From assembly GCA_021792365.1 (NCBI GenBank), contig JAJYUT010000004.1, positions 186,001 to 250,000 of the forward strand: a stretch of DNA of 64,000 bases, in the 5' to 3' direction. Shown piece by piece: positions 3,477 through 35,142 of the stretch. The notes beneath the pieces are model-generated. The model was not told where the DNA came from. It saw nothing but the letters and a program-made list of their open reading frames with translations, and did not search any database. Position 1 is the first letter of the stretch. Each line of letters opens with the position of its first letter. A program made the translations under genes and the position numbers. This DNA is from Pseudomonadota bacterium (GTDB taxonomy: Bacteria > Pseudomonadota > Alphaproteobacteria > Dongiales > Dongiaceae).

Positions 3477-4553
3477 ATGAAATCCACGCATCCGCAAATG
3501 CCCCAGAGGCTGCTCGCCTGGTACGACCGGCACCGGCGGAGCCTGCCGTGGCGCGCCAGGCCGGGCGAAACGGCGGATCCCTATCACGTCTGGCTGAGCG
3601 AGATCATGCTGCAGCAGACCACCGTGCCGGCGGTGAAGCCGTATTACGAGACCTTCCTGAAGCGCTGGCCGAGCGTGCGGGACCTCGCGGCGGCGGACAT
3701 CCACGACGTTATGGCGGCCTGGGCTGGGCTCGGCTATTACGCGCGGGCGCGCAACCTGCATAAATGCGCCCAGATCGTGACCGAGCGGCACGGCGGGCGC
3801 TTCCCCGATACGGAGGACGCGTTACGCGAATTGCCCGGCATCGGGCGCTATACCGCGGGCGCCATCGCCGCCATCGCCTTCGGACGCAAGGCCACCATCC
3901 TCGACGGCAATGTCGAGCGGGTGGTGAGCCGCCTTCACCGCCTCCAGACCCCGCTGCCCAAGGCCAAGGCCGAATTGTGGGCGCTGGCCGAGGAGCTGAC
4001 GCCGGAGCAGCGGCCGGGCGACTACGCCCAGGCGATCATGGATCTCGGCGCCACCATCTGCACGCCGCAGAAGCCGGCCTGCTCGCTTTGCCCGTGGAAC
4101 GCGGATTGCGCCGCCTTCGCCGCCGGCGACCAGGAGACCTATCCGCGCAAGGCGCCGAAGGCCGAGCGGCCGCAGCGTTACGGCGCCGCCTTCTGGATGG
4201 TGAACGAGAATGGCGAGGTGGCCTTGCGCCGCCGCCCGCCGCGCGGCCTTTTGGGCGGGATGCTGGAGGTGCCGGGCACGGAGTGGGGCGCCGCGCCCCT
4301 GGCGCAGGACGCGGCCTTACGCAAGGCGCCCGTCCCGGCGGACTGGCGCTGGTCCGACGGGATCGTGCGGCACGTCTTCACGCATTTCGCGTTGGAGCTG
4401 CAGGTCGCGACCGCGATGGTGCGCGGCCGCCCGCTCGCCGATGCCGAGTGGGTGCCGATCGACCGTCTCGGCGCCGTCGCCCTGCCCAGCGTGATGCGCA
4501 AGGTCGCGAAGCTCGCGCTCGCCGGCGCGGTGCGGAAGCAAGCGGCGCAATGA
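3477..4553 (+). CDS. mutY: Adenine DNA glycosylase MutY
   Basis: Removes adenine mispaired with 8-oxoguanine in base excision repair. The 358-residue protein has the HhH-GPD fold with the catalytic glutamate at residue 42 (WLSEIMLQQTT), the hairpin LPGIGRYTAGAI and the catalytic aspartate in LDGNVERV. The 4Fe-4S loop is complete, with cysteines spaced C-x6-C-x2-C-x5-C (CTPQKPACSLCPWNADC). The C-terminal third is the NUDIX-like domain that recognises 8-oxoG (RRPPRGLLGGMLEVPGTEW). Length and order are typical. It is divergent from the DUF721 gene. Confidence 0.97.
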   Translation: MKSTHPQMPQRLLAWYDRHRRSLPWRARPGETADPYHVWLSEIMLQQTTVPAVKPYYETFLKRWPSVRDLAAADIHDVMAAWAGLGYYARARNLHKCAQIVTERHGGRFPDTEDALRELPGIGRYTAGAIAAIAFGRKATILDGNVERVVSRLHRLQTPLPKAKAELWALAEELTPEQRPGDYAQAIMDLGATICTPQKPACSLCPWNADCAAFAAGDQETYPRKAPKAERPQRYGAAFWMVNENGEVALRRRPPRGLLGGMLEVPGTEWGAAPLAQDAALRKAPVPADWRWSDGIVRHVFTHFALELQVATAMVRGRPLADAEWVPIDRLGAVALPSVMRKVAKLALAGAVRKQAAQ

Positions 4554-4560
4554 GCGACCT

Positions 4561-4580
4561 CCTCCCCAGCTTGGGGGAGG
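4561..4580. terminator. Short G/C hairpin between mutY and the facing small gene
   Basis: A 7-bp perfect stem (CCTCCCC / GGGGAGG) with a 6-base loop lies eight bases after the mutY stop and just before the stop of the convergent gene. There is no T tract on the plus strand. A bidirectional terminator is plausible but weakly supported. Confidence 0.35.
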
Positions 4581-4587
4581 GGAAAGG

Positions 4588-4848
4588 CTACTCGGCGATC
4601 CCCAGCAACTGTTCCGCTTCCTGGAGCTTGGCCATGCTGTCGGCGTGGTTGCCGGCTTCGTGCAGGGCTTGGCCTTCGTCGCGCAGCGCCTGGGCCTGCG
4701 CCTTCACGTCGTCGCCGGCGGTGGAGGTGGCGAGGGCGGCGTCGATCTTCTGCACGTGCATGGGGCAGGAACTGGCGAACGCGGCCCCGCTCACGAGCGC
4801 TGAGCTCATGAATGCACTCAGGGCGATGGCTGTGATGAGCGTCTTCAT
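4588..4848 (-). CDS. Small secreted protein of unknown function
   Basis: An 86-residue protein with a clear signal peptide (MKTLITAIALSAFMSSALVS, then cleavage near AFA-SS), so it is probably periplasmic. The mature part starts with SCPMHVQKIDAAL and continues as an Ala/Gln/Glu-rich amphipathic helical pair (ALRDEGQALHEAGNHADSMA) resembling a single TPR-like helical hairpin. I do not recognise a named family. A much longer frame reads upstream from it, but only as antisense to the ccrM region. It stands alone, convergent with mutY, with repeat DNA upstream. Confidence 0.65.
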   Translation of the reverse strand: MKTLITAIALSAFMSSALVSGAAFASSCPMHVQKIDAALATSTAGDDVKAQAQALRDEGQALHEAGNHADSMAKLQEAEQLLGIAE

Positions 4849-4976
4849 CGTCGATCTCCCGGGTTGGTGATCCGCGCGGGGCTTATGAAACTCCCGAAGT
4901 TGCGGATGCGCCACTGACAAGGCGGCCACAGCGGAACACGAATGCGTGAGGGGCGGAGCTGGCGCGCTTCTTTTTG

Positions 4977-5071
4977 CTGTCACCCCGGACAAGCGCAGCG
5001 CGATCCGGGGTCCATGGATGGGGTTGGCGCCAAGCGGCGCATTGGACCCGGCGCGGAGGCCGGGGTGACAG
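4977..5071. repeat. REP-like palindromic intergenic element, copy 1
   Basis: A 95-base element whose ends are a perfect 12-bp inverted repeat (CTGTCACCCCGG / CCGGGGTGACAG). The interior holds GATCCGGGGTCCATGGATGG. A second copy with the same ends and core occurs at 13215-13312. Palindromes of this type (CCCGGA...GATCCGGGGTCCATGGA) are scattered between genes in many alphaproteobacterial genomes. Confidence 0.75.
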
Positions 5072-5161
5072 TAACAGTAGGAGAAGCGGCGAGCAGTGCG
5101 CGGAACGGCCCTATGGGTCCCGGGCCGCGCTGCGCGCGCCCGGGATGACATCCCCAATGAT

Positions 5162-5202
5162 GAAAAGGAGAAACGGCGCGACGGTGTCGGGACCGTCGCG
5201 CC
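5162..5202 (-). terminator. Rho-independent terminator downstream of ccrM
   Basis: On the minus strand an 11-bp perfect stem (GGCGCGACGGT / ACCGTCGCGCC) with a 6-base loop is followed by a T-rich run (GTTTCTCCTTTTC). It lies about 100 bases after the ccrM stop and fits a factor-independent terminator. Confidence 0.75.
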
Positions 5203-5306
5203 GTGGGGAGAGCGTTGCTTCGCTGTCTTCGCCCTCGGTGGTCTCCGGAGCATTTTCCGCCGAAGTGGATGCCGGTTCGGCGTAGGAAATGCGACCAGCG
5301 TGCCGG

Positions 5307-6500
<1,194 letters not shown>

Positions 6501-6502
<2 letters not shown>

Positions 6503-7124
6503 AGTCGATTAGAGAAAGTTGCTCATAAACCGGCTTAAATGACACGCGGTGATGGAGGGTGAGGCCGTGGGCCTCGATCGCGGCGCGATGCTCCCGCGTG
6601 CCGTAGCCGACATTGGTCTCCCACCCATATCTTGGGTGCTCGCAGTGCAGCTCCCGCATCATCTTGTCGCGCGCCACTTTCGCGAGAATGGACGCGGCGG
6701 CGACGGAATAGGAGAGATGGTCCCCCTCGACGACGGTGGTCTCCGCGCAGGGCAGGCCCGGCTTCATGTTGCCGTCGATGATGGCGTGGCAGGGCTCGAC
6801 CGGCAGCTGCTCGAACGCGCGGCGCATGGCCATGAAGGTGGCGCGCAGGATGTTGAAGCGGTCGATCTCCTCGACGCTCGCCTCGCCCAGCGCCCAGATC
6901 GCCCGGACGCGCAGCTTCTCCGCCACCGCCTCGCGCACCTCGGGCGCCAGGCGCTTCGAATCATCGAGCGCGCCGAGCAGCCGCGTCGAGATCCCGGAGA
7001 GCGGCAGGATCGCCGCGCACGCCACGACCGGCCCCGCCAACGGCCCACGCCCCGCCTCATCGACGCCGCAGATCACGGCGCCCGATTTGCGACCCAGCGA
7101 GATCTCGTAGCGGAAGGTGGGCAT
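6501..7124 (-). CDS. rnhB: Ribonuclease HII
   Basis: Cuts the RNA strand of RNA-DNA hybrids and single ribonucleotides embedded in DNA. The 207-residue length is typical. The metal-binding start GVDEAGRGPLAGPVVA, the aspartate in IIDGNMKP and the motif VAAASILAKVARDKMM are all present. The C-terminus (GLTLHHRVSFKPV) matches the family. It precedes ccrM on the same strand; its end overlaps the ccrM leader with the GANTC cluster. The next gene upstream belongs to a foreign-looking island. Confidence 0.96.
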
Positions 7125-7146
7125 GAGGGCGGTATAGCACTGCGCG

Positions 7147-7159
7147 CGGAGTCGGGGGA
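7147..7159 (+). repeat. 13-bp inverted repeat, left end of the ietAS island
   Basis: CGGAGTCGGGGGA here is matched perfectly, in reverse complement, at 10662-10674. The two copies bracket the ATPase/protease pair closely: this one is 10 bases past the protease stop and the other is about 70 bases upstream of the ATPase start. It may mark the ends of an inserted segment, though a G-rich 13-mer could recur by chance in such a genome. Confidence 0.5.
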
Positions 7160-7168
7160 GGGGATAAG

Positions 7169-9619
7169 TCAGACAGCAACGGCAGCAGCAACCATGTTCT
7201 CAATCTTAGCCTTCACCTCGGAGTATAGATCGGTCGCAACTGTCTCGGCGTCAATTTCGACGATCAATGCAAATCGCGCGGACAGTTGTTCGGGGTCTGC
7301 CACTGTCTTCGTCTTCCACCATCCAGCAACTGGATGAACCGCGAGTATATTGCGGCGAGCCAGATCGGACGCGGGGCAAGTCAATTCATCGATCTGAAGA
7401 GAACCTACATCACGGCGATTGCGTCCGAACCTCCAGCCATCGTCCTCATCGACGAGCAGAATGTCCGGCTGATCCGCCGCCACGCTTATTCGTGCGATGA
7501 AAGCGGCGATGTCTTCGTTGGGTCGGTTTAACTTGAACCTCAAATTGTGCGAAGCGTAACGGAACTTTGATCCCCGCGCCGCTTCAGATGGATTGGGGTG
7601 GATAAACGTACTGAGTGTAATTCGCAGTGTGACCTGGGTATCCACCAGCTTCCTTAGTTCCCCTACCGGCCACGGCAATTCGAAGAGCTTCATTTCGTTG
7701 TTTTGATGATCATCACTTCTTTTTTTTCCTTTCTTAAATGGGACGATAGTGTCTTGCACGATCAGCGTTAGGGCATTTGAAGCGCTCCTTCGAGCTCGCA
7801 GAAGATCCGGTATCCCAAAGCCGTAGCGCTGGAACAGGGGAGTATAGTCGCCCTTCGCAGCATTTGCCGGCAAGTGACTCAGCATTTGATAATTCCAACG
7901 AGCTGACGACGCCAAGAGCGCCCTAACTGTTTCCGGCCAGAGATGGGGATAATCCGACCATATCTCCGCAGCTGCTCTCGCGGCCAGTGCCGTCGCACCG
8001 CTAGTGTCACCGCACGTAGTAAACGCCCGCAGCGGATACCGATGATCGGTCGTCAAGAGCGAAAGAGCTTGATGGCTTAGAGGCGGTGGTGCGCCATCGA
8101 CCACCCAGTTTCCGCCCTCGAAAACGATATCGGGCTTAATGGGCCAGTGAGATGACCAGCTTGCAGTCCGTGAGGAGGGAGCAAGATCGCCAGCGGGAGC
8201 AAGTGGAAGTCCAGGTTGTCCGGGGGGCAGGGCATCTTTCTCAGTGAATGCACCAACGCAGATCGCATTCCACGCCTGAGCGGGTGATTCGATTTCATTT
8301 GCTAGATGATGCGATACAGCAAGATAGTTGGCATTTCCAAATAAGTTCTGCTTGGTATTTCCCGCAGATATTAGAAATAGCCGTTGAACCTTCTTGATTC
8401 CCGATACACCCGCCGCTAGCTGATCAATTTCGCTCGACCACGACGTAGGAGCCCCATCGTGAGGTGTATCGTCTTCCGTGGTGCTCGCCATGGAAAACGT
8501 GCGTCGGCGATTTCCTCCAGCTTCAACCGTGTTCACGCCATTGCGCGTCATGGCACCTAGAAGATGATGGGGATTTTGGCCTGCATCAGGTACGATCTTC
8601 ACGGACTCCAAACGATGCCTGATGTTGATTGGCACCACATTCTGAAGCGCCAGCGTCAGGTCGCCATACAACGAGAGCCCAGCCAGCTGAGTGCCATGCC
8701 CTTTGTTGTCTTCAACGCTCCATGCTGGATCGGCAGCGTATCGATCATCAACGTGCAGCGCGGGAGAAATCAATGGGTGATTTCGTCCAACACCCGTATC
8801 GAGCAAGCTAATATAACTTGGATCGTCACCAGGGTCGAATGTGGTGGCGTTTCGCATTGCCTCCACCCATTCGACTTGCTCCTCAGTTTCCATCGAATCG
8901 AAGAATTCCGAGGTCACGCTAGGCGCGGCAAGAGCGCGTACACCGCCAAGTCGACGAACTGCGAGCGCAAGCGCGTCATGCGTGGCCCTGCCAATCAATA
9001 CGATATCTTCAGGAAATTGTAGGCGATCGTTACCAATGCTGACGTCAAATTGCTCTGCGCCAGCGACGAAGATCTCGACCGAAGACTTCTCAAGCCAGAT
9101 CTCCCAAGAGGAAGGAGCATTATTCTCCGGGAACTTGTTTGGTGGGCTGCGCCACAGAGCGCGAAGTCCTGCTTCTGTTATAGCTCCAATGCTCTGCACT
9201 AGGTCGGCATTGTAAGGACGACCCAGTGCACCTCCCTTCCCCTTACGGTTCTTTTCGGAAAAATCTTCGACCTTTTGCCTGAGCTTCTCCAGGCCTTTCG
9301 CGGGAGCGAAGATAGTGGCTCTAGCGGGTTCGTTCTGTTCGGGCTTGGCAGGGTGCGTTTGAAGTAGAACCAGATCACTTGCGTTGAGACTCTTGGTGAT
9401 CATGACTTCGCCGGGGCGGCCCCGTACGTCAAGATAAATGCCTGGCCTCGCTTCTGCCTTGGGGTCGGGAAGGGCATCCAGAGCCTGCAACAGAGCCATA
9501 GCGTGCGCCGCCCGATCGAGAACGTTACTTGGCCTCTTTGTTGATCCTCCGCCCTTTGCCTTGAATTCTCTTTGTTTCCCTATGCCCTCTAGGACGAAGT
9601 GTTCGCGATCCCTCGGCAT
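7169..9619 (-). CDS. Subtilisin-like (S8) serine protease, IetS-like
   Basis: An 816-residue cytoplasmic-looking subtilase with no signal peptide. The catalytic triad is complete: Asp274 in SLLDTGVG, His308 in NKGHGTQLAG and Ser540 in CGDTSGATALAAR. The N-terminal region before the protease (residues 1-230), with a PSNVLDRAAHAM motif, and a long C-terminal region of about 250 residues are typical of S8 peptidases paired with AAA+ ATPases. IetS of the Agrobacterium ietAS pair is a subtilisin-like protease of this layout, and ietAS is listed among anti-phage systems; function here is inferred. The gene starts inside the end of the ATPase gene (95-base overlap). Base composition is visibly poorer in GC than its neighbours, which suggests acquisition by transfer. 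Confidence 0.88.
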   Translation of the reverse strand: MPRDREHFVLEGIGKQREFKAKGGGSTKRPSNVLDRAAHAMALLQALDALPDPKAEARPGIYLDVRGRPGEVMITKSLNASDLVLLQTHPAKPEQNEPARATIFAPAKGLEKLRQKVEDFSEKNRKGKGGALGRPYNADLVQSIGAITEAGLRALWRSPPNKFPENNAPSSWEIWLEKSSVEIFVAGAEQFDVSIGNDRLQFPEDIVLIGRATHDALALAVRRLGGVRALAAPSVTSEFFDSMETEEQVEWVEAMRNATTFDPGDDPSYISLLDTGVGRNHPLISPALHVDDRYAADPAWSVEDNKGHGTQLAGLSLYGDLTLALQNVVPINIRHRLESVKIVPDAGQNPHHLLGAMTRNGVNTVEAGGNRRRTFSMASTTEDDTPHDGAPTSWSSEIDQLAAGVSGIKKVQRLFLISAGNTKQNLFGNANYLAVSHHLANEIESPAQAWNAICVGAFTEKDALPPGQPGLPLAPAGDLAPSSRTASWSSHWPIKPDIVFEGGNWVVDGAPPPLSHQALSLLTTDHRYPLRAFTTCGDTSGATALAARAAAEIWSDYPHLWPETVRALLASSARWNYQMLSHLPANAAKGDYTPLFQRYGFGIPDLLRARRSASNALTLIVQDTIVPFKKGKKRSDDHQNNEMKLFELPWPVGELRKLVDTQVTLRITLSTFIHPNPSEAARGSKFRYASHNLRFKLNRPNEDIAAFIARISVAADQPDILLVDEDDGWRFGRNRRDVGSLQIDELTCPASDLARRNILAVHPVAGWWKTKTVADPEQLSARFALIVEIDAETVATDLYSEVKAKIENMVAAAVAV

Positions 9620-24409: not shown

Positions 24410-25466
24410 CTAGACCGGTGTCGGCAGCGGACTGGACACAACCTCAAAACCGTAGTTCGGCATCCGCCTGACCCGGCGGCCGATGCTTGATCGCAGCAGA
24501 TGCCGGAGCTGCACCAAGAGCGGCTTGAGCACGATTACCCATCGCCAGCGCTTGGAGCGATCCAGGTCTCGGAATCGCTTTCGGCAGTTCCAGCGGAAGC
24601 AGATCTCGTCGAGATAGCGCTGCAAGTGCTCGCGGCTCAGGCGATGATAGACGCCGTCTTCGCTCGCTCCAGGATGCCGCCGAGCCCATCAGCCGTGCCG
24701 CTATGGACATCATCGCGAACGTATTCGCGCTCGCTGTGGATCACGGTCTCGATCTCCAATCCCATGTCAGTCGCGGCCGCCGTGAAGCTATTCTCCTTGT
24801 CGCTGACCAAGAGCGAGCCTGGCGCCACGATAGGATTCAGAGCTGCGGTGATGTCGGCGGTTGACTCTTGCGGAATCACGATGGCGCGGGCTTCACCACC
24901 GCGTTGGATTGCAATCAGGACTCTCGGCTTCTTGGTTCCTTACCTCGAGGCGCCGGCTTCGCGTCCTTGCGCCATTTTGGCGCTCCGCCGAGGTACTTCA
25001 CGTCAATCTCGATGGTGTCGGACAGCGCTGGTTCAATGTCGTTGCGGTGATGCATCATCTCACGGATCGCATGCCCCATGCGCCAAGCCGTGGCCTGAGT
25101 GACGCCCAGCAGCCGGGCCATCACCACAGACGAGATTCCCTTGCTCGAAGTCAGCACGAGATAGATCGCGTGGATCCAGGTCCACAGCGGAAGCTTGGTG
25201 GCGTGCAACGGCGTCTTCGTCGTGACCGTGTATTGCTTGCTGCAATCGGCGCATTCCTTGAGGCCCGGCCTGCAGCTCTTGCCGCCCAGCACCCAATGGG
25301 CATAGCTGCCGCAGTGAGGGCAGAACGGCCCCTGCGGCCATCGCAGCTCTTCGAGAAACGTCCGGCACGCCGCTTCAGTTGGATACTGCCGCCGGAGCGT
25401 CGCGAGCGATGGGATCTGGTTCTTCGGTTTGTCATGTATCCCGCCGCCCCCAAAAAGACCCTCCAC
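24410..25466 (-). pseudogene. IS1595-family (ISXO2-like) transposase, broken by two frameshifts
   Basis: Three consecutive frames together spell one transposase. The first piece has the zinc ribbon (CPHCGSY...CADCSKQYT) and the motif TPLHATKLPLWTWIHAIYL, up to DTIEIDVKYLGG, the first catalytic aspartate. The frame shifts near 24930 and resumes as RVLIAIQRGGEARAIVIPQE, then SLLVSDKENSF with the second aspartate. It shifts again near 24660 and resumes as GVYHRLSREHLQRYLDEICF. The end is degraded. No terminal inverted repeats could be delimited by eye, so the ends of the insertion sequence are unknown. It is inactive as it stands. Confidence 0.85.
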
Positions 25467-28726: not shown

Positions 28727-29309
28727 ATGTCACGTCCCCATTGGGTTATGGCGGTGATCGGGATGAGGAGTGGTCAACCGCACCGCGTCAATTGCCACTC
28801 TTCTGTCAGCCCGGGCTCTTGCCGATGCCCGGTGCAAGGGGCGCCCGCGTCAGGTGCGGGCAGCCGCAAGCGCAACCTAACCAGCGCGGGCGCCGGGGAA
28901 AAGGGTGCCGCAGATGCACGGGCCGTGTTTTCCGGTCTTCGGACGTCGCGCCGGCGCCTCCCCGCGAACTTGCCCAGCGCGGCCGATGCGTTCGTCTCCG
29001 CGCTCACAGGGGCCAAACGACCTTCGGGCGCGATTCTTGTCTTCTGTCCAATAGACGATGTCGTCTGTCCGTAACATCGCGTCCGCGACGTCAAATGTCT
29101 CGACATCCCTGCAAATCAAGGGCTTGGGCAAATGAGCCGATTGCGCCTCGCGTGCGGCCGGCCCCGGATGTCGCGAGGAAAACAAGCTCCGTGGCCAGGC
29201 GTTACGCATTATGCCGTGCCTTCATAGGCCTTTCGCAACGGCTGGCATCCGGGCCTGTTCCCTCAAGCAGGCGCCCCGGAAGGGGAAGAGAGCGGGGCGA
29301 AGGTCCGAC
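28727..29309. other. Divergent intergenic stretch between proX and the epimerase fusion
   Basis: No gene is supported; frames here have the Arg/Ala-rich look of noncoding GC-rich DNA. It must hold the proX promoter and that of the plus-strand gene. A third copy of the GCGTTACGCA motif, extended to GCGTTACGCATTA, lies at about 29199-29211. I see no riboswitch-like structure. Confidence 0.5.
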
Positions 29310-31856
29310 GTGGCAGAGCGAGCCGAACCCTCCCAGGACATTGTGCTCATCACCGGCAGCAGCGGCTTCATCGGCCAGGCGCTGGCGGGGCGGCTATCGG
29401 CGCGTTATCAGGTTGTGGGGCTCGACCTGTTCCCGCCACGCAAGGGCACGGATATCGAAACCATCCGGCTCGACCTCACCGACGAGCAGGCGGTGCGCAA
29501 GGCGATGGCGGAGATCGGCGACAAATACGGCGCCCGCATCGCTTCGGTCATCCACCTTGCCGCTTACTACGACCTCAGCGGCGAGCCGGACCCGAAATAC
29601 CAGCAGGTCACGGTCGAAGGCACGCGCCGCCTGCTGCGCGCTCTGCGCACGCGGTTCACGGTGGAGCAGTTCGTGTTCTCCAGCACCCTTCTGGTCCATG
29701 CGCCGGGCGAGCGCGGCAAGCCGATCGACGAGGATTGGCCGATTGAGCCGAAATGGCCGTACCCTGAGTCCAAGGCCAAGACGGAAGAGATCGTGAGGCG
29801 GGAGCGCGGGCAGATTCCCGCGGTCATCCTGCGCCTTGCCGGGGTCTATGACGAGGATTGCCGCGCTGCCTTTTTGGCGCAGCAGATCGCGCGCATCTAC
29901 GAGCAGCAGCCGGCCAGCTACCTGTTCGCGGGGGAGCCGGAGAGCGGCCAGCCCTATTTGCACCTGGACGACCTCCTCGAGGCGATCGAGCGCGTGGTGG
30001 ACCGGCGCAATCGCCTGCCGCCGGACGTCACGATGCTGATCGGGGAGAAGCGCGGCCCGACCTACGAGGAGCTGCAGCGCGCGATCGGCGAACAGATCCA
30101 CGGCAGGCCCTGGCCAACCTTCTCGCTCCCGCGGCCCCTGGCGCAGGCCGGCGCCTGGATGCAGGACGAGGTGCTGCAGGAGAATCCCTTCATCAAGCCG
30201 TGGATGATGGAGATCGCTGAGGACCATTACGAGATCGACACCGGCCGGGCGCGCAAGTTCCTAGGCTGGGAGCCGCGGCACGATCTCAAGGCGAGCCTGC
30301 GCATCATGATCGCGCGGCTGAAGGAGGATCCGCCCGGCTGGTACAAGGCCAACAAGCTTGACGCATCGGTGGTGGCTGCCGCCGATGTCGTCATCGAACG
30401 CGCGGAGGACCGGATCGACGCGCGCGAGCCGGAACTGATCGCGCGCCGCGAGGCGGCGCTGGGGCAACACCACGCCGCCACGCGCTGGGCGCATCTCACC
30501 AACATGGCGCTCGGCGCTTGGCTGATCGCGACGCCTTTCGCGACTGGCCTGTTCGCAGGGGACACCAGTGCGGCTTTGCCGCCCGCCGCCGGCTGGCAAT
30601 TGCCGGAACCGGATTTGCGCGATCGCTGGCTGGGCCTCAGCGAGATCGCGAGCGGGCTGGCGATCTGCCTGCTCACCGGGCGGGCATTCGCGCGCGCGCC
30701 GTCCTGGACGCAATGGGCGATCGCGGCCATCGGCCTCTGGGTGATGACGGCGCCGCTCGTGTTCTGGACCACCAGCGCAGCGGCGTATGCGCTCGACAGC
30801 CTCATCGGCGCGCTGATCTTCGCCTTCGCGGTGATCGTCGCGCCCACGCCCGGCGTTGATCGCGTGGCCCTCGGCTCGGAGGGCGACGTGCCGCTCGGCT
30901 GGTCCTATTCGCCATCCTCCTACGTGCAGCGCGTGCCGATCGTCGCGCTGGCCTTCATCGGCTTCTTCGTGTCGCGCTATCTCGCGGCCTACCAGCTCGG
31001 GCATGTGCCGGCAGTGTGGGACCAGTTCTTCCCCGGCACCGTGCCGGAGCGCAACGGTACAGAATCGGTCATCACCTCCGAGCTGTCGCGCGCCTTTCCG
31101 ATCCCCGATGCCGGCTTCGGCGCGCTCGCCTACATGCTCGACATCCTGACCGGGATCATTGGCGACCAGCGGCGCTGGCGCACCATGCCGTGGCTGGTCT
31201 TGCTGTTCGGCCTCATGATCGTGCCGCTGGGCGCGGTCAGCGTCGGCTTCATCATCATCCAGCCGACGATGATCGGCGCGCTCTGCACGCTATGCCTGCT
31301 GCAGGCGGCGGTCACCGTGGTGCTGATCCCATATTCAGTGGACGAGGTGCTGGCGACCATCCAGTTCCTGATCCGCAGCAAGCGGGTGGGGCGGCCGTTC
31401 TGGCGCACCCTGTTCCGCGGCGATGCCGGGTTCTCCGAGCGGAAGGACGAGATGCAGCGCCTCGTGCTGCCCGTCTCGAAGATGGCGCACGACTTCCTCT
31501 CAGGCGGCGTCACCTATCCCTGGACCCTGATCGCCAGCGTCGCAATCGGCATCTACCTGATGGTCACGCCGCTGATCCACGACACGGCGCCGCCGCTCTA
31601 TTTCAGCGACCACGTCGTCGGTTGCCTCGTCATCACCATCGCCATCACGGCTTTCGCGGAGCTGATGCGGCTGCTCCGCCTGCTCAACGTGCCGTTGGGG
31701 CTCTGGGTCGCCGCCTCGCCGTTCCTGCTGGAGGGCGGCAATACCTTCGCCACTGTCGTCGATGTCGCGCTCGGCCTCGCCCTCGCCGCCCTCAGCCTGC
31801 CGCGCGGCGCGCGCAGCCGGGAGCAATACGGCGGCTGGAACCGGTTGATCCTGTGA
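29310..31856 (+). CDS. Fusion of NAD-dependent epimerase, SPW-repeat membrane segments and VKOR-like domain
   Basis: An 848-residue protein. Residues 10-340 are an extended SDR/epimerase with the NAD loop ITGSSGFIG (14-22) and the catalytic YPESK (Tyr151). Next come two SPW-type membrane repeats (GAWLIATPF and GLWVMTAPL). A VKOR-like membrane domain has the redox pair Cys659/Cys662 (GALCTLCLLQ) but lacks the usual loop cysteines. Two more SPW-type repeats follow (YLMVTPL and GLWVAASPF). It may couple a nucleotide-sugar or quinone-related reaction with membrane thiol chemistry, but no function is known to me. The GTG start is chosen because the epimerase fold begins right after it; an ATG 33 codons upstream is possible. 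It converges with the slipin gene. Confidence 0.75.
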   Translation: MAERAEPSQDIVLITGSSGFIGQALAGRLSARYQVVGLDLFPPRKGTDIETIRLDLTDEQAVRKAMAEIGDKYGARIASVIHLAAYYDLSGEPDPKYQQVTVEGTRRLLRALRTRFTVEQFVFSSTLLVHAPGERGKPIDEDWPIEPKWPYPESKAKTEEIVRRERGQIPAVILRLAGVYDEDCRAAFLAQQIARIYEQQPASYLFAGEPESGQPYLHLDDLLEAIERVVDRRNRLPPDVTMLIGEKRGPTYEELQRAIGEQIHGRPWPTFSLPRPLAQAGAWMQDEVLQENPFIKPWMMEIAEDHYEIDTGRARKFLGWEPRHDLKASLRIMIARLKEDPPGWYKANKLDASVVAAADVVIERAEDRIDAREPELIARREAALGQHHAATRWAHLTNMALGAWLIATPFATGLFAGDTSAALPPAAGWQLPEPDLRDRWLGLSEIASGLAICLLTGRAFARAPSWTQWAIAAIGLWVMTAPLVFWTTSAAAYALDSLIGALIFAFAVIVAPTPGVDRVALGSEGDVPLGWSYSPSSYVQRVPIVALAFIGFFVSRYLAAYQLGHVPAVWDQFFPGTVPERNGTESVITSELSRAFPIPDAGFGALAYMLDILTGIIGDQRRWRTMPWLVLLFGLMIVPLGAVSVGFIIIQPTMIGALCTLCLLQAAVTVVLIPYSVDEVLATIQFLIRSKRVGRPFWRTLFRGDAGFSERKDEMQRLVLPVSKMAHDFLSGGVTYPWTLIASVAIGIYLMVTPLIHDTAPPLYFSDHVVGCLVITIAITAFAELMRLLRLLNVPLGLWVAASPFLLEGGNTFATVVDVALGLALAALSLPRGARSREQYGGWNRLIL

Positions 31857-34251: not shown

Positions 34252-35142
34252 CTACGGCTTCACGTAGTTGCGCCAGAAGTGCTTCTGCTGGAAGCCCAGC
34301 ATCTCGCGCGCCTTCTTGTTGGAGAGCAGCGTTTCGAACTCGCCGAGGTCGCGCTTCACGGGCACGCTGGGATAGAAGCGCTTCAGGAGCTCCCTGGTCG
34401 GCAGGTCGGAGGAGGTGTCGCCGCTCGCGGCGTTGAAGATCTGGAAGCCGAGGCCGTCGGTCTCGATGCAGCGGTGGCACAAATCGCCCAGATCGCGCGC
34501 ATCGATGTAGCTCCAGGCGATCTTCTTGCGGAGGCCCGGGTCCTTGAACCACTTCGGGAACAGCGCATATTCGTGCGGCTCGATCACGTTGCCGATGCGC
34601 AGCGCGTAGATGTCCGCCTTGGCGCGCAGCGCGAAGCCGCGCGCCGTCCGCTCGTTGACGATCTTGGACAGGGCGTAGCTGTCCATCGGGTTCACGTCGT
34701 ATTCCTCGTCGAGCGGGAAATAGTCCGGCTCGCGCGGCGTGTCGGCGAACACCACGCCATAGGTCGTCTCGCTGGAGGCGATAATGATTTTCCTGATGCC
34801 GAGCTTCACCGCCGCCTCGAGGACGTTGTACGTGCTCATCACGTTGATGCGGTAGAGCTCGTTGTCCGGTGCGATCATGATGCGCGGGATGGCGGCGAAA
34901 TGGATCACGGCGTCGATCGGCTGCGCGCGCAGGTCTGGGTCGAATTCGTGCAGGCCCATATAGCTGGTGAGTGCGTTGAACACCTGGCCGGAATCGGTGA
35001 GGTCGGTGGTGAGGGTGCGCGCCGCGGGATTGTCCAGCGGCTTGATGTCGAGGTTCAGCACCTGGTAGCCGTAGTCGAGCAGGACCTGCAGCGCGTGCTT
35101 GCCGGCCTTGCCGCTGCCACCGGTAAAGATCACTCTCTTCAT
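34252..35142 (-). CDS. NAD-dependent epimerase/dehydratase family protein
   Basis: A 296-residue extended SDR enzyme. The N-terminal NAD loop is FTGGSGKAG, the catalytic pair is in YALSKIVNE, and the active-site serine/threonine is in IIASSETTYG. The substrate is likely a nucleotide sugar or uronic acid, but the sequence does not tell which. It is unrelated in detail to the epimerase fused at 29.3-31.9 kb. It is transcribed toward nfeD and separated from it by about 115 bases. Confidence 0.87.
   Translation of the reverse strand: MKRVIFTGGSGKAGKHALQVLLDYGYQVLNLDIKPLDNPAARTLTTDLTDSGQVFNALTSYMGLHEFDPDLRAQPIDAVIHFAAIPRIMIAPDNELYRINVMSTYNVLEAAVKLGIRKIIIASSETTYGVVFADTPREPDYFPLDEEYDVNPMDSYALSKIVNERTARGFALRAKADIYALRIGNVIEPHEYALFPKWFKDPGLRKKIAWSYIDARDLGDLCHRCIETDGLGFQIFNAASGDTSSDLPTRELLKRFYPSVPVKRDLGEFETLLSNKKAREMLGFQQKHFWRNYVKP

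Follow-up and report, generated by a model that had tools for sequence, protein, structure and literature searches.

A window of 64,000 nucleotides from an alphaproteobacterium of the Dongiaceae (assembly GCA_021792365.1, contig JAJYUT010000004.1, positions 186,001 to 250,000; "the window" below means this whole stretch) carries at 29310-31856 a gene in which a short-chain dehydrogenase/reductase (SDR) is joined to a four-helix bundle of the vitamin K epoxide reductase (VKOR) fold lying between two SPW domains. In the reading favoured here, to which a probability of roughly 0.4 is given, the bundle and the two SPW domains would form a 12-helix membrane module that tethers a cytosolic, NAD-dependent extended SDR. 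Like known VKORs, the bundle would probably bind a membrane quinone or an isoprenoid ligand of similar kind. Its essential task would be other than thiol catalysis, resting on the family-specific invariant residues R541, R622-W628, D600, Q651-P652 and D678-E679 together with Ser590. Where a CxxC is present, as in the window, it would probably exchange electrons directly between the ligand and a thiol from outside, on the periplasmic side and with no shuttle pair. The SDR would then be an NAD enzyme in its own right, localised at the membrane and working on a sugar- or lipid-linked substrate, and not one half of a single redox chain.

Domain architecture and predicted topology

The gene is one unbroken frame running from a GTG start at 29310 to a stop at 31854-31856 and encoding 848 aa, numbered here from that GTG; an alternative in-frame ATG start at 29211 would give 881 aa. 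As the preliminary description of the sequence had proposed, an epimerase, SPW repeats and a VKOR-like domain share this frame, and all three are recognised above the Pfam cut-offs: Epimerase PF01370 at residues 12-241 (E 1e-27), VKOR PF07884 at residues 543-676 (E 2e-24, 86.7 bits against a cut-off of 27.5) and SPW PF03779 (E 4e-20, 72.5 bits against a cut-off of 31.5; three stretches with the whole protein, two with the part from residue 391 on). Pfam, AlphaFold and structural alignment agree on the order cytosolic extended SDR, SPW domain, VKOR-fold bundle, second SPW domain, with 12 helices. The gene and its parts are as follows.

29310..31856, + strand: whole fusion gene, SDR - SPW - VKOR-like - SPW (open reading frame; Pfam; AlphaFold predicted local distance difference test score, pLDDT, 90.3 and predicted template modelling score, pTM, 0.74 for the whole chain)
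29310..30344, + strand: extended SDR (NAD epimerase/dehydratase) domain, residues 1-345 (PF01370, fold match)
29355..29375, + strand: GxxGxxG dinucleotide motif, residues 16-22 (alignment)
29760..29774, + strand: YxxxK active site, Y151 and K155 (alignment)
30384..30482, + strand: helical linker into the first membrane helix, residues 359-391 (DSSP on the AlphaFold model)
30483..30839, + strand: N-terminal SPW domain, four membrane helices, residues 392-510 (PF03779; same place in relatives L012 and L103; model helices)
30915..31376, + strand: VKOR-like four-helix bundle, residues 536-689 (PF07884; structural alignment)
31059..31088, + strand: periplasmic loop with T584 (position of the second loop Cys), S590 (Ser57 equivalent) and S593 (alignment)
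31173..31193, + strand: RWRTMPW, residues 622-628, cytosolic loop, family-specific (alignment)
31284..31295, + strand: C659-T-L-C662, the CxxC (alignment)
31341..31346, + strand: D678-E679, family-specific acidic pair in the fourth VKOR helix (alignment)
31521..31793, + strand: C-terminal SPW domain, four membrane helices, residues 738-828 (PF03779 at 738-830; model)

Of the four SPW-type repeats announced in the preliminary description, all four positions are found (TPF at 408, APL at 481, TPL at 753, SPF at 803), but none of them reads literally S-P-W. Degenerate SPW units are common according to the available text of PMC8078820.

In total, 109 loci were compared, comprising the window, loci from a pattern scan of a species-genome collection (523 stretches and 403 relatives, the best 80 of the 403 being used, which skews the set to the window's own clade), and plasmid and genome loci. 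The SDR and membrane parts lie in one frame at 95 of these, in alpha-, beta- and gammaproteobacteria. Among the 14 unfused loci, five are broken or partial copies (L051, L074, L093, L107, L113), and the others are apparently stand-alone SPW-VKOR-SPW genes, namely five haloarchaeal plasmid loci, Manganitrophus L102, L066, and L011/L069, which belong to one organism. Since the same fusion recurs at 95 loci, it is genuine and no sequencing or assembly artefact. The chance that separate genes had been joined by a frameshift or assembly error, named at the outset as what would overturn the description, is negligible: no support for it was found, the five broken or partial copies point the opposite way, and the gene is under purifying selection along its length, with a ratio of nonsynonymous to synonymous rates (dN/dS) of 0.18 between the window and L014 of Dongia deserti. 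This Dongiaceae alphaproteobacterium, from whose single genome both L014 and L013 come, is the closest named relative found, its membrane part being 83% identical.

The membrane part modelled as residues 391-848 gave pLDDT 89.2 and pTM 0.86, and its 12 membrane helices divide into four SPW, four VKOR and four SPW helices. Alignment of this part with VIA-align returned solved VKORs as all of the best 12 matches (Z 10.0-12.2 over 124-141 residues, ~536-689); the next, unrelated matches reached Z <= 9.3, a modest margin for a helical bundle, with Pfam concordant. With Foldseek alone, VKORs headed the ranking, though only at E 0.05 or worse and with no match at E <= 0.001, and a search of Protein Data Bank sequences with the VKOR part gave no match. 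The VKOR-fold assignment thus follows from the structural alignment together with Pfam, and the other objection named at the outset, that domain searches might not back a VKOR, is excluded.

The membrane topology was predicted from the distribution of positive charges, with 18 Lys/Arg in 110 inside-loop residues versus 2 in 78 outside-loop residues when the SDR part was excluded. On these counts the SDR, RWRTMPW and both termini are predicted to be inside and the VKOR loop and the CxxC outside, on the periplasmic side, placing the SDR and the CxxC on opposite faces of the membrane.

Residue counts below refer to an alignment of 107 rows, from which L113 and L074 were dropped and in which 95 rows are fused; L094-L096 stand outside the alignments, and all three keep CxxC and RWRTMPW. 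The SDR part carries G16xxG19xxG22 and Y151xxxK155, the latter being the active site noticed at first reading. The NAD-motif glycines are kept in 94 (G16), 92 (G19) and 91 (G22) of the 95 fused rows, and Y151 and K155 in 93, the exceptions L105 and L118 carrying L and M. Position 39, at the end of the second strand, is Asp in 91 fused rows and Glu in four. By the usual SDR rule, D39 is consistent with a preference for NAD. The fold resembles UDP-glucose 4-epimerases and related sugar enzymes (target TM 0.66-0.81 among the 50 matches listed). All of the 25 NCBIfam matches listed, of 42, fell far under the cut-offs, the best being HpnA at 59 bits versus 367.65, and no named enzyme is therefore assignable to the SDR. 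A second extended SDR is encoded at window positions 34252-35142, ~2.4 kb downstream on the opposite strand, and is distant kin of the fused one (31% identity over part).

Cysteines and invariant residues of the VKOR-like bundle

Known VKORs carry the loop cysteines Cys43 and Cys51 and a serine, Ser57, that are fully conserved according to the available text of PMC4555120. The CxxC, corresponding to Cys132/Cys135, is present in the window as C659/C662, and both cysteines occur in 101 of the 107 rows. The loop pair is missing, as the preliminary description had stated for the window, and the same holds for the whole alignment, with no Cys at residues 563-600 in any of the 107 rows: the position of the second loop Cys is Thr or Ser in every row (T584 in the window), and that of the first aligns with a gap, Gly or Ala on comparison with the VKORs L128 and L132. 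Through the same two VKORs S590 was assigned as the Ser57 equivalent, and it is kept in all rows. Invariant over the 107 rows are S590, S593, D600, R541, R622, W623, R624, M626, P627, W628, Q651, P652, D678 and E679; of these, R541, R622, R624, D678 and E679 are proposed to cluster on the cytosolic side. Each position of RWRTMPW is conserved in 106-107 rows, and the motif does not occur in L128 and L132, where the place of D678-E679 is taken by N-L or N-I.

The CxxC is missing in six rows, L104, L110, L111, L103, L117 (S..A) and L012 (A..T); L008 and L012 are one gene. A careful tree, built from 58 of the 107 rows with the CxxC residues masked, needs two CxxC changes, and holding the six CxxC-less rows as one group was rejected by the approximately unbiased test (p-AU 1.4e-10), the grouping having first been noticed on an earlier tree, before this one-clade test. 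As judged by the tree, the CxxC has thus been lost twice, independently. In three CxxC-less pairs the dN/dS of the VKOR part is 0.040, 0.064 and 0.023. In the first pair the other three parts all have higher values; in the second the SDR part, at 0.059, lies a little below the VKOR part; and the third has zero nonsynonymous changes in the C-terminal SPW part. Substitution rates thus indicate that the VKOR part of these proteins is under purifying selection, the domain being retained without its thiols. Y151 and K155 are kept in all six rows.

The reverse loss is seen in L105, on a Cupriavidus plasmid, and L118, where Y151 and K155 are replaced by L and M and the middle NAD-motif Gly by Ser, with CxxC and RWRTMPW kept. 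The Epimerase match of L105 is still weakly present (26.3 bits, Pfam), and the SDR half of both, fused in frame (6387-8972 in L105), is probably a pseudo-enzyme domain; the two loci are nearly identical, with one SDR difference, too few to judge selection on that part.

These losses bear on the suggestion of the preliminary description that NAD chemistry and quinone or thiol chemistry might be coupled, the SDR and the VKOR-like CxxC forming one electron path between NAD(H) and quinone or thiols. Fusion of the domains at 95 of the 109 loci and the intact state of both active sites in the window would suit such an enzyme, as would the classical SDR gene that shares a cluster with five of the six stand-alone forms from archaea and Manganitrophus, the sixth adjoining an NDUFA9-type SDR. 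That archaeal SDR is, however, no close relative of the fused one. The topology prediction places the two sites across the membrane from each other, the CxxC disappeared twice from proteins that retain YxxxK, and L105 and L118 lack YxxxK but have the CxxC. Both the predicted topology and the losses in either direction speak against an electron path that necessarily links NAD and thiols, and the coupling is very unlikely. The haloarchaeal SDR annotated as "complex I NDUFA9 family" was also considered as a split form of the fusion (a Rosetta stone pair) and dropped, as its match to the fused SDR was weak (best E 3e-4) and mostly confined to the nucleotide motif.

Alternatively, the SPW-VKOR part might be a non-catalytic regulator or scaffold that responds to the redox state of the membrane or to a ligand and so controls the SDR or its location. 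Such a role would fit the missing loop relay, the constraint that persists on the VKOR part after thiol loss and the helical linker between the SDR and the first membrane helix. It is nonetheless unlikely, since SPW-VKOR-SPW occurs without a fused SDR in haloarchaea and Manganitrophus, and L105 and L118 retain the membrane part and CxxC beside an SDR without YxxxK.

Several points weigh against a tethering membrane module whose essential role is free of thiol chemistry. We know of no ligand, substrate or activity for any member of the family, and quinone binding is a property that would be carried over from known VKORs. Retention of the CxxC in 101 of the 107 rows and in L094-L096 indicates that thiols matter in most lineages. 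The CxxC-less rows are six loci only, all from Alphaproteobacteria, with L104 and L110 identical in the tree columns; two of the three CxxC-less pairs are close, their VKOR parts being separated by only ~1-2 nonsynonymous changes; and L104, L110 and L111 have Ala as the third NAD-motif Gly, so the SDR may be altered too. With these points counted, there is a little less than an even chance that the loci represent a family of Bacteria and Archaea with a repurposed VKOR fold, in which the essential function is free of CxxC/quinone dithiol chemistry and relies on a new invariant site (R541, RWRTMPW, D600, QP, D678-E679), and the bundle serves NAD enzymes as a membrane ligand or quinone module with optional cysteines.

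Distribution, neighbourhood and the disulfide and copper alternatives

The window genome (G000, 5.4 Mb) holds a single copy of the fusion, and the gene is patchy among close kin, being present in two of 16 genomes of the same genus or family (G002, G005). A class sample gave matches in 6 of 385 genomes (E <= 1e-10) and a phylum sample in 6 of 398 (E <= 1e-30), the window's own included in both; in the class sample G081 matches a short SPW-like stretch only. A first genome scan with the full-length protein as query gave no match, and no further members were found in the family of G054 (10 genomes) or the order of G110 (2 genomes) beyond G054 and G110 themselves. The phylum sample contained nine VKOR matches in 8 of the 398 genomes, and by open-frame length (831-906 aa) seven of the nine are of the fusion type (G558, two in G733, G676, the window's own G000, G688 and G693), at the same places as the fusion matches of that sample. 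The other two are proteins of 405 and 425 aa, and the one scanned has a DsbA-like domain. A "vitamin K epoxide reductase" label in Pseudomonadota may well not mean a disulfide-forming enzyme.

Dongia deserti has a further copy of the fusion, belonging to clade B, in L013 at 3730-9049, with an SDR and a GH15 gene after it. The Jiella locus L107 was considered as a natural two-gene form and rejected, as its separate frame matches the SDR at 52% identity as far as residue 317 and its VKOR frame carries residues 309 on, which looks like a broken fusion copy.

The CxxC might also pass electrons from periplasmic proteins to quinone, making disulfides in place of DsbB as a single-pair enzyme. The VKOR fold with a CxxC at the expected place and the DsbA-like genes near relatives L067, L093, L107 and L109 are compatible with this role, which is distinctly unlikely all the same. 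The window genome has a separate DsbB on another contig (C17; PF02600 match of 113 bits), so the fusion protein need not be a general disulfide oxidase; no row has a loop Cys; and the two CxxC losses occurred under purifying selection. The only DsbA-like match in the window, at 2118-2591 on the - strand and ~27 kb from the fusion gene, is weak (23% identity to a Jiella DsbA-family protein).

The fusion gene stands alone in the window. Upstream of it, on the opposite strand, is an ATP-binding cassette (ABC) system of the glycine-betaine type, and downstream are SPFH and NfeD genes in convergent orientation. Near the glycine betaine ABC genes, at 24915-25466, a short frame encodes an IS1595-type transposase zinc ribbon and may be a remnant. 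A shared operon partner was sought by clustering the neighbours of 84 loci and discarded, as no cluster occurred in more than seven genus labels.

Copper genes recur near some relatives. The tree divides the family into clades A (the window, rhizobia, Microvirga), B and C, with careful-tree support of 100/99, 83/86 and 89/90, respectively. Among genome loci, copper genes were found in the fetched flanks at 1 of 51 loci of clade A, 7 of 18 of clade B and 0 of 13 of clade C, and the difference between clade B and clades A and C together (1 of 64) gave Fisher p 5.8e-5 with relatedness ignored. The test was confined to genome loci; the queries were copper-resistance proteins from plasmid and archaeal loci, which makes the counts there partly circular. 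Copper genes also accompany six of another ten clade B rows, made up of plasmids, a duplicate and a locus with short flanks; the flanks of L118-L123 are short. The clade B neighbours include CopC/CopD, CueR with a multicopper oxidase and a P-type ATPase, DUF411, or resistance-nodulation-division (RND) pumps.

The CxxC could accordingly be imagined to bind or oxidise Cu(I) under copper stress, and the enrichment in clade B speaks for this, as do the similar islands around the archaeal and Manganitrophus relatives, where copper genes accompany five of six forms (some queries coming from these loci). The idea is highly improbable, since L104 and L111 lie inside copper islands among CopC, CopD and DUF411 genes yet have no CxxC, and the window's clade has copper neighbours at that single locus of 51. 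A role in metal stress is directly testable, given the recurring link with copper-resistance islands in the sister clade and in haloarchaea.

The query test detected no copper genes at several plasmid loci, among them S. meliloti L098, S. paucimobilis L103, S. cloacae L117, Limimaricola L112, Croceicoccus L108 and Qipengyuania L110; a heavy-metal-associated domain gene lies near L110 and RND efflux genes near L108. The ortholog in S. meliloti 1021 may have a tag near SMb20012, a guess on our part and not an established assignment; a literature search under this tag gave no result beyond an entry for SMb20013 in a table of PMC12542648. The CxxC-less genes on the sphingomonad plasmids (L103 2768-14033, L117 1854-13117) share a stress island encoding K+ efflux, cardiolipin synthase, Hsp20, YfdX and a Crp/Fnr regulator.

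A set of GH15 (trehalase/glucoamylase-like), SPW-VKOR-SPW and classical SDR genes recurs on haloarchaeal, Manganitrophus and Cupriavidus plasmids, for the most part next to copper genes; the set GH15 - SPW-VKOR - SDR is found in five of the six archaeal and Manganitrophus forms. The loci of the set are as follows.

L100 5028-9438: GH15, SPW-VKOR-SPW and SDR gene set
L115 5074-10372: same set
L114 5079-9463: same set
L116 5761-10250: same set
L102 3448-7766: same set
L105 3555-8972: same set

Comparison with known systems

The fusion protein is VKOR-like by fold and by its CxxC and lacks the loop cysteines of the family. Like Synechococcus VKOR (3kp9/4nv5), human VKOR (6wv3) and Takifugu VKOR-like (6wvb), all of PF07884, it has the four-helix bundle with the CxxC at the start of the last helix, and the Ser57 equivalent S590 and the conserved G604 and Y608 are likewise shared. 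Different from these enzymes, it has Thr or Ser in place of the second loop cysteine and no loop pair, and the CxxC itself is missing in 6 of 107 rows; R541, RWRTMPW, QP, D600 and D678-E679 are family-specific, and SPW domains flank the bundle. VKOR relatives are usually described by four cysteines and a quinone, and a bundle that stays constrained without the loop pair, and at times without the CxxC, provides a natural system for studying other functions of the VKOR fold.

The SDR part shares the GxxGxxG and YxxxK motifs and the fold of extended SDRs of the UDP-glucose 4-epimerase type (PF01370), from which it differs by its membrane tether and by scores below the NCBIfam cut-offs. The haloarchaeal, Manganitrophus and Cupriavidus gene sets hold homologous SPW-VKOR-SPW proteins that share its invariant residues. 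In the archaeal and Manganitrophus forms no SDR is fused, and the window gene lacks neighbours like those of the sets.

With SPW repeat proteins (PF03779) the fusion shares SPW matches on both sides of the VKOR part. The preliminary description knew of no characterised member, and no functional study of the SDR-SPW-VKOR-SPW architecture was found in the literature searched, but the domain pairings are already catalogued: according to the available text of PMC8078820, in print since 2021, a VKOR domain or an NAD-dependent epimerase domain is present in some SPW proteins. That text names a VKOR or an epimerase domain, not both, whereas the fusion protein unites all three, with the VKOR part set between two SPW domains.

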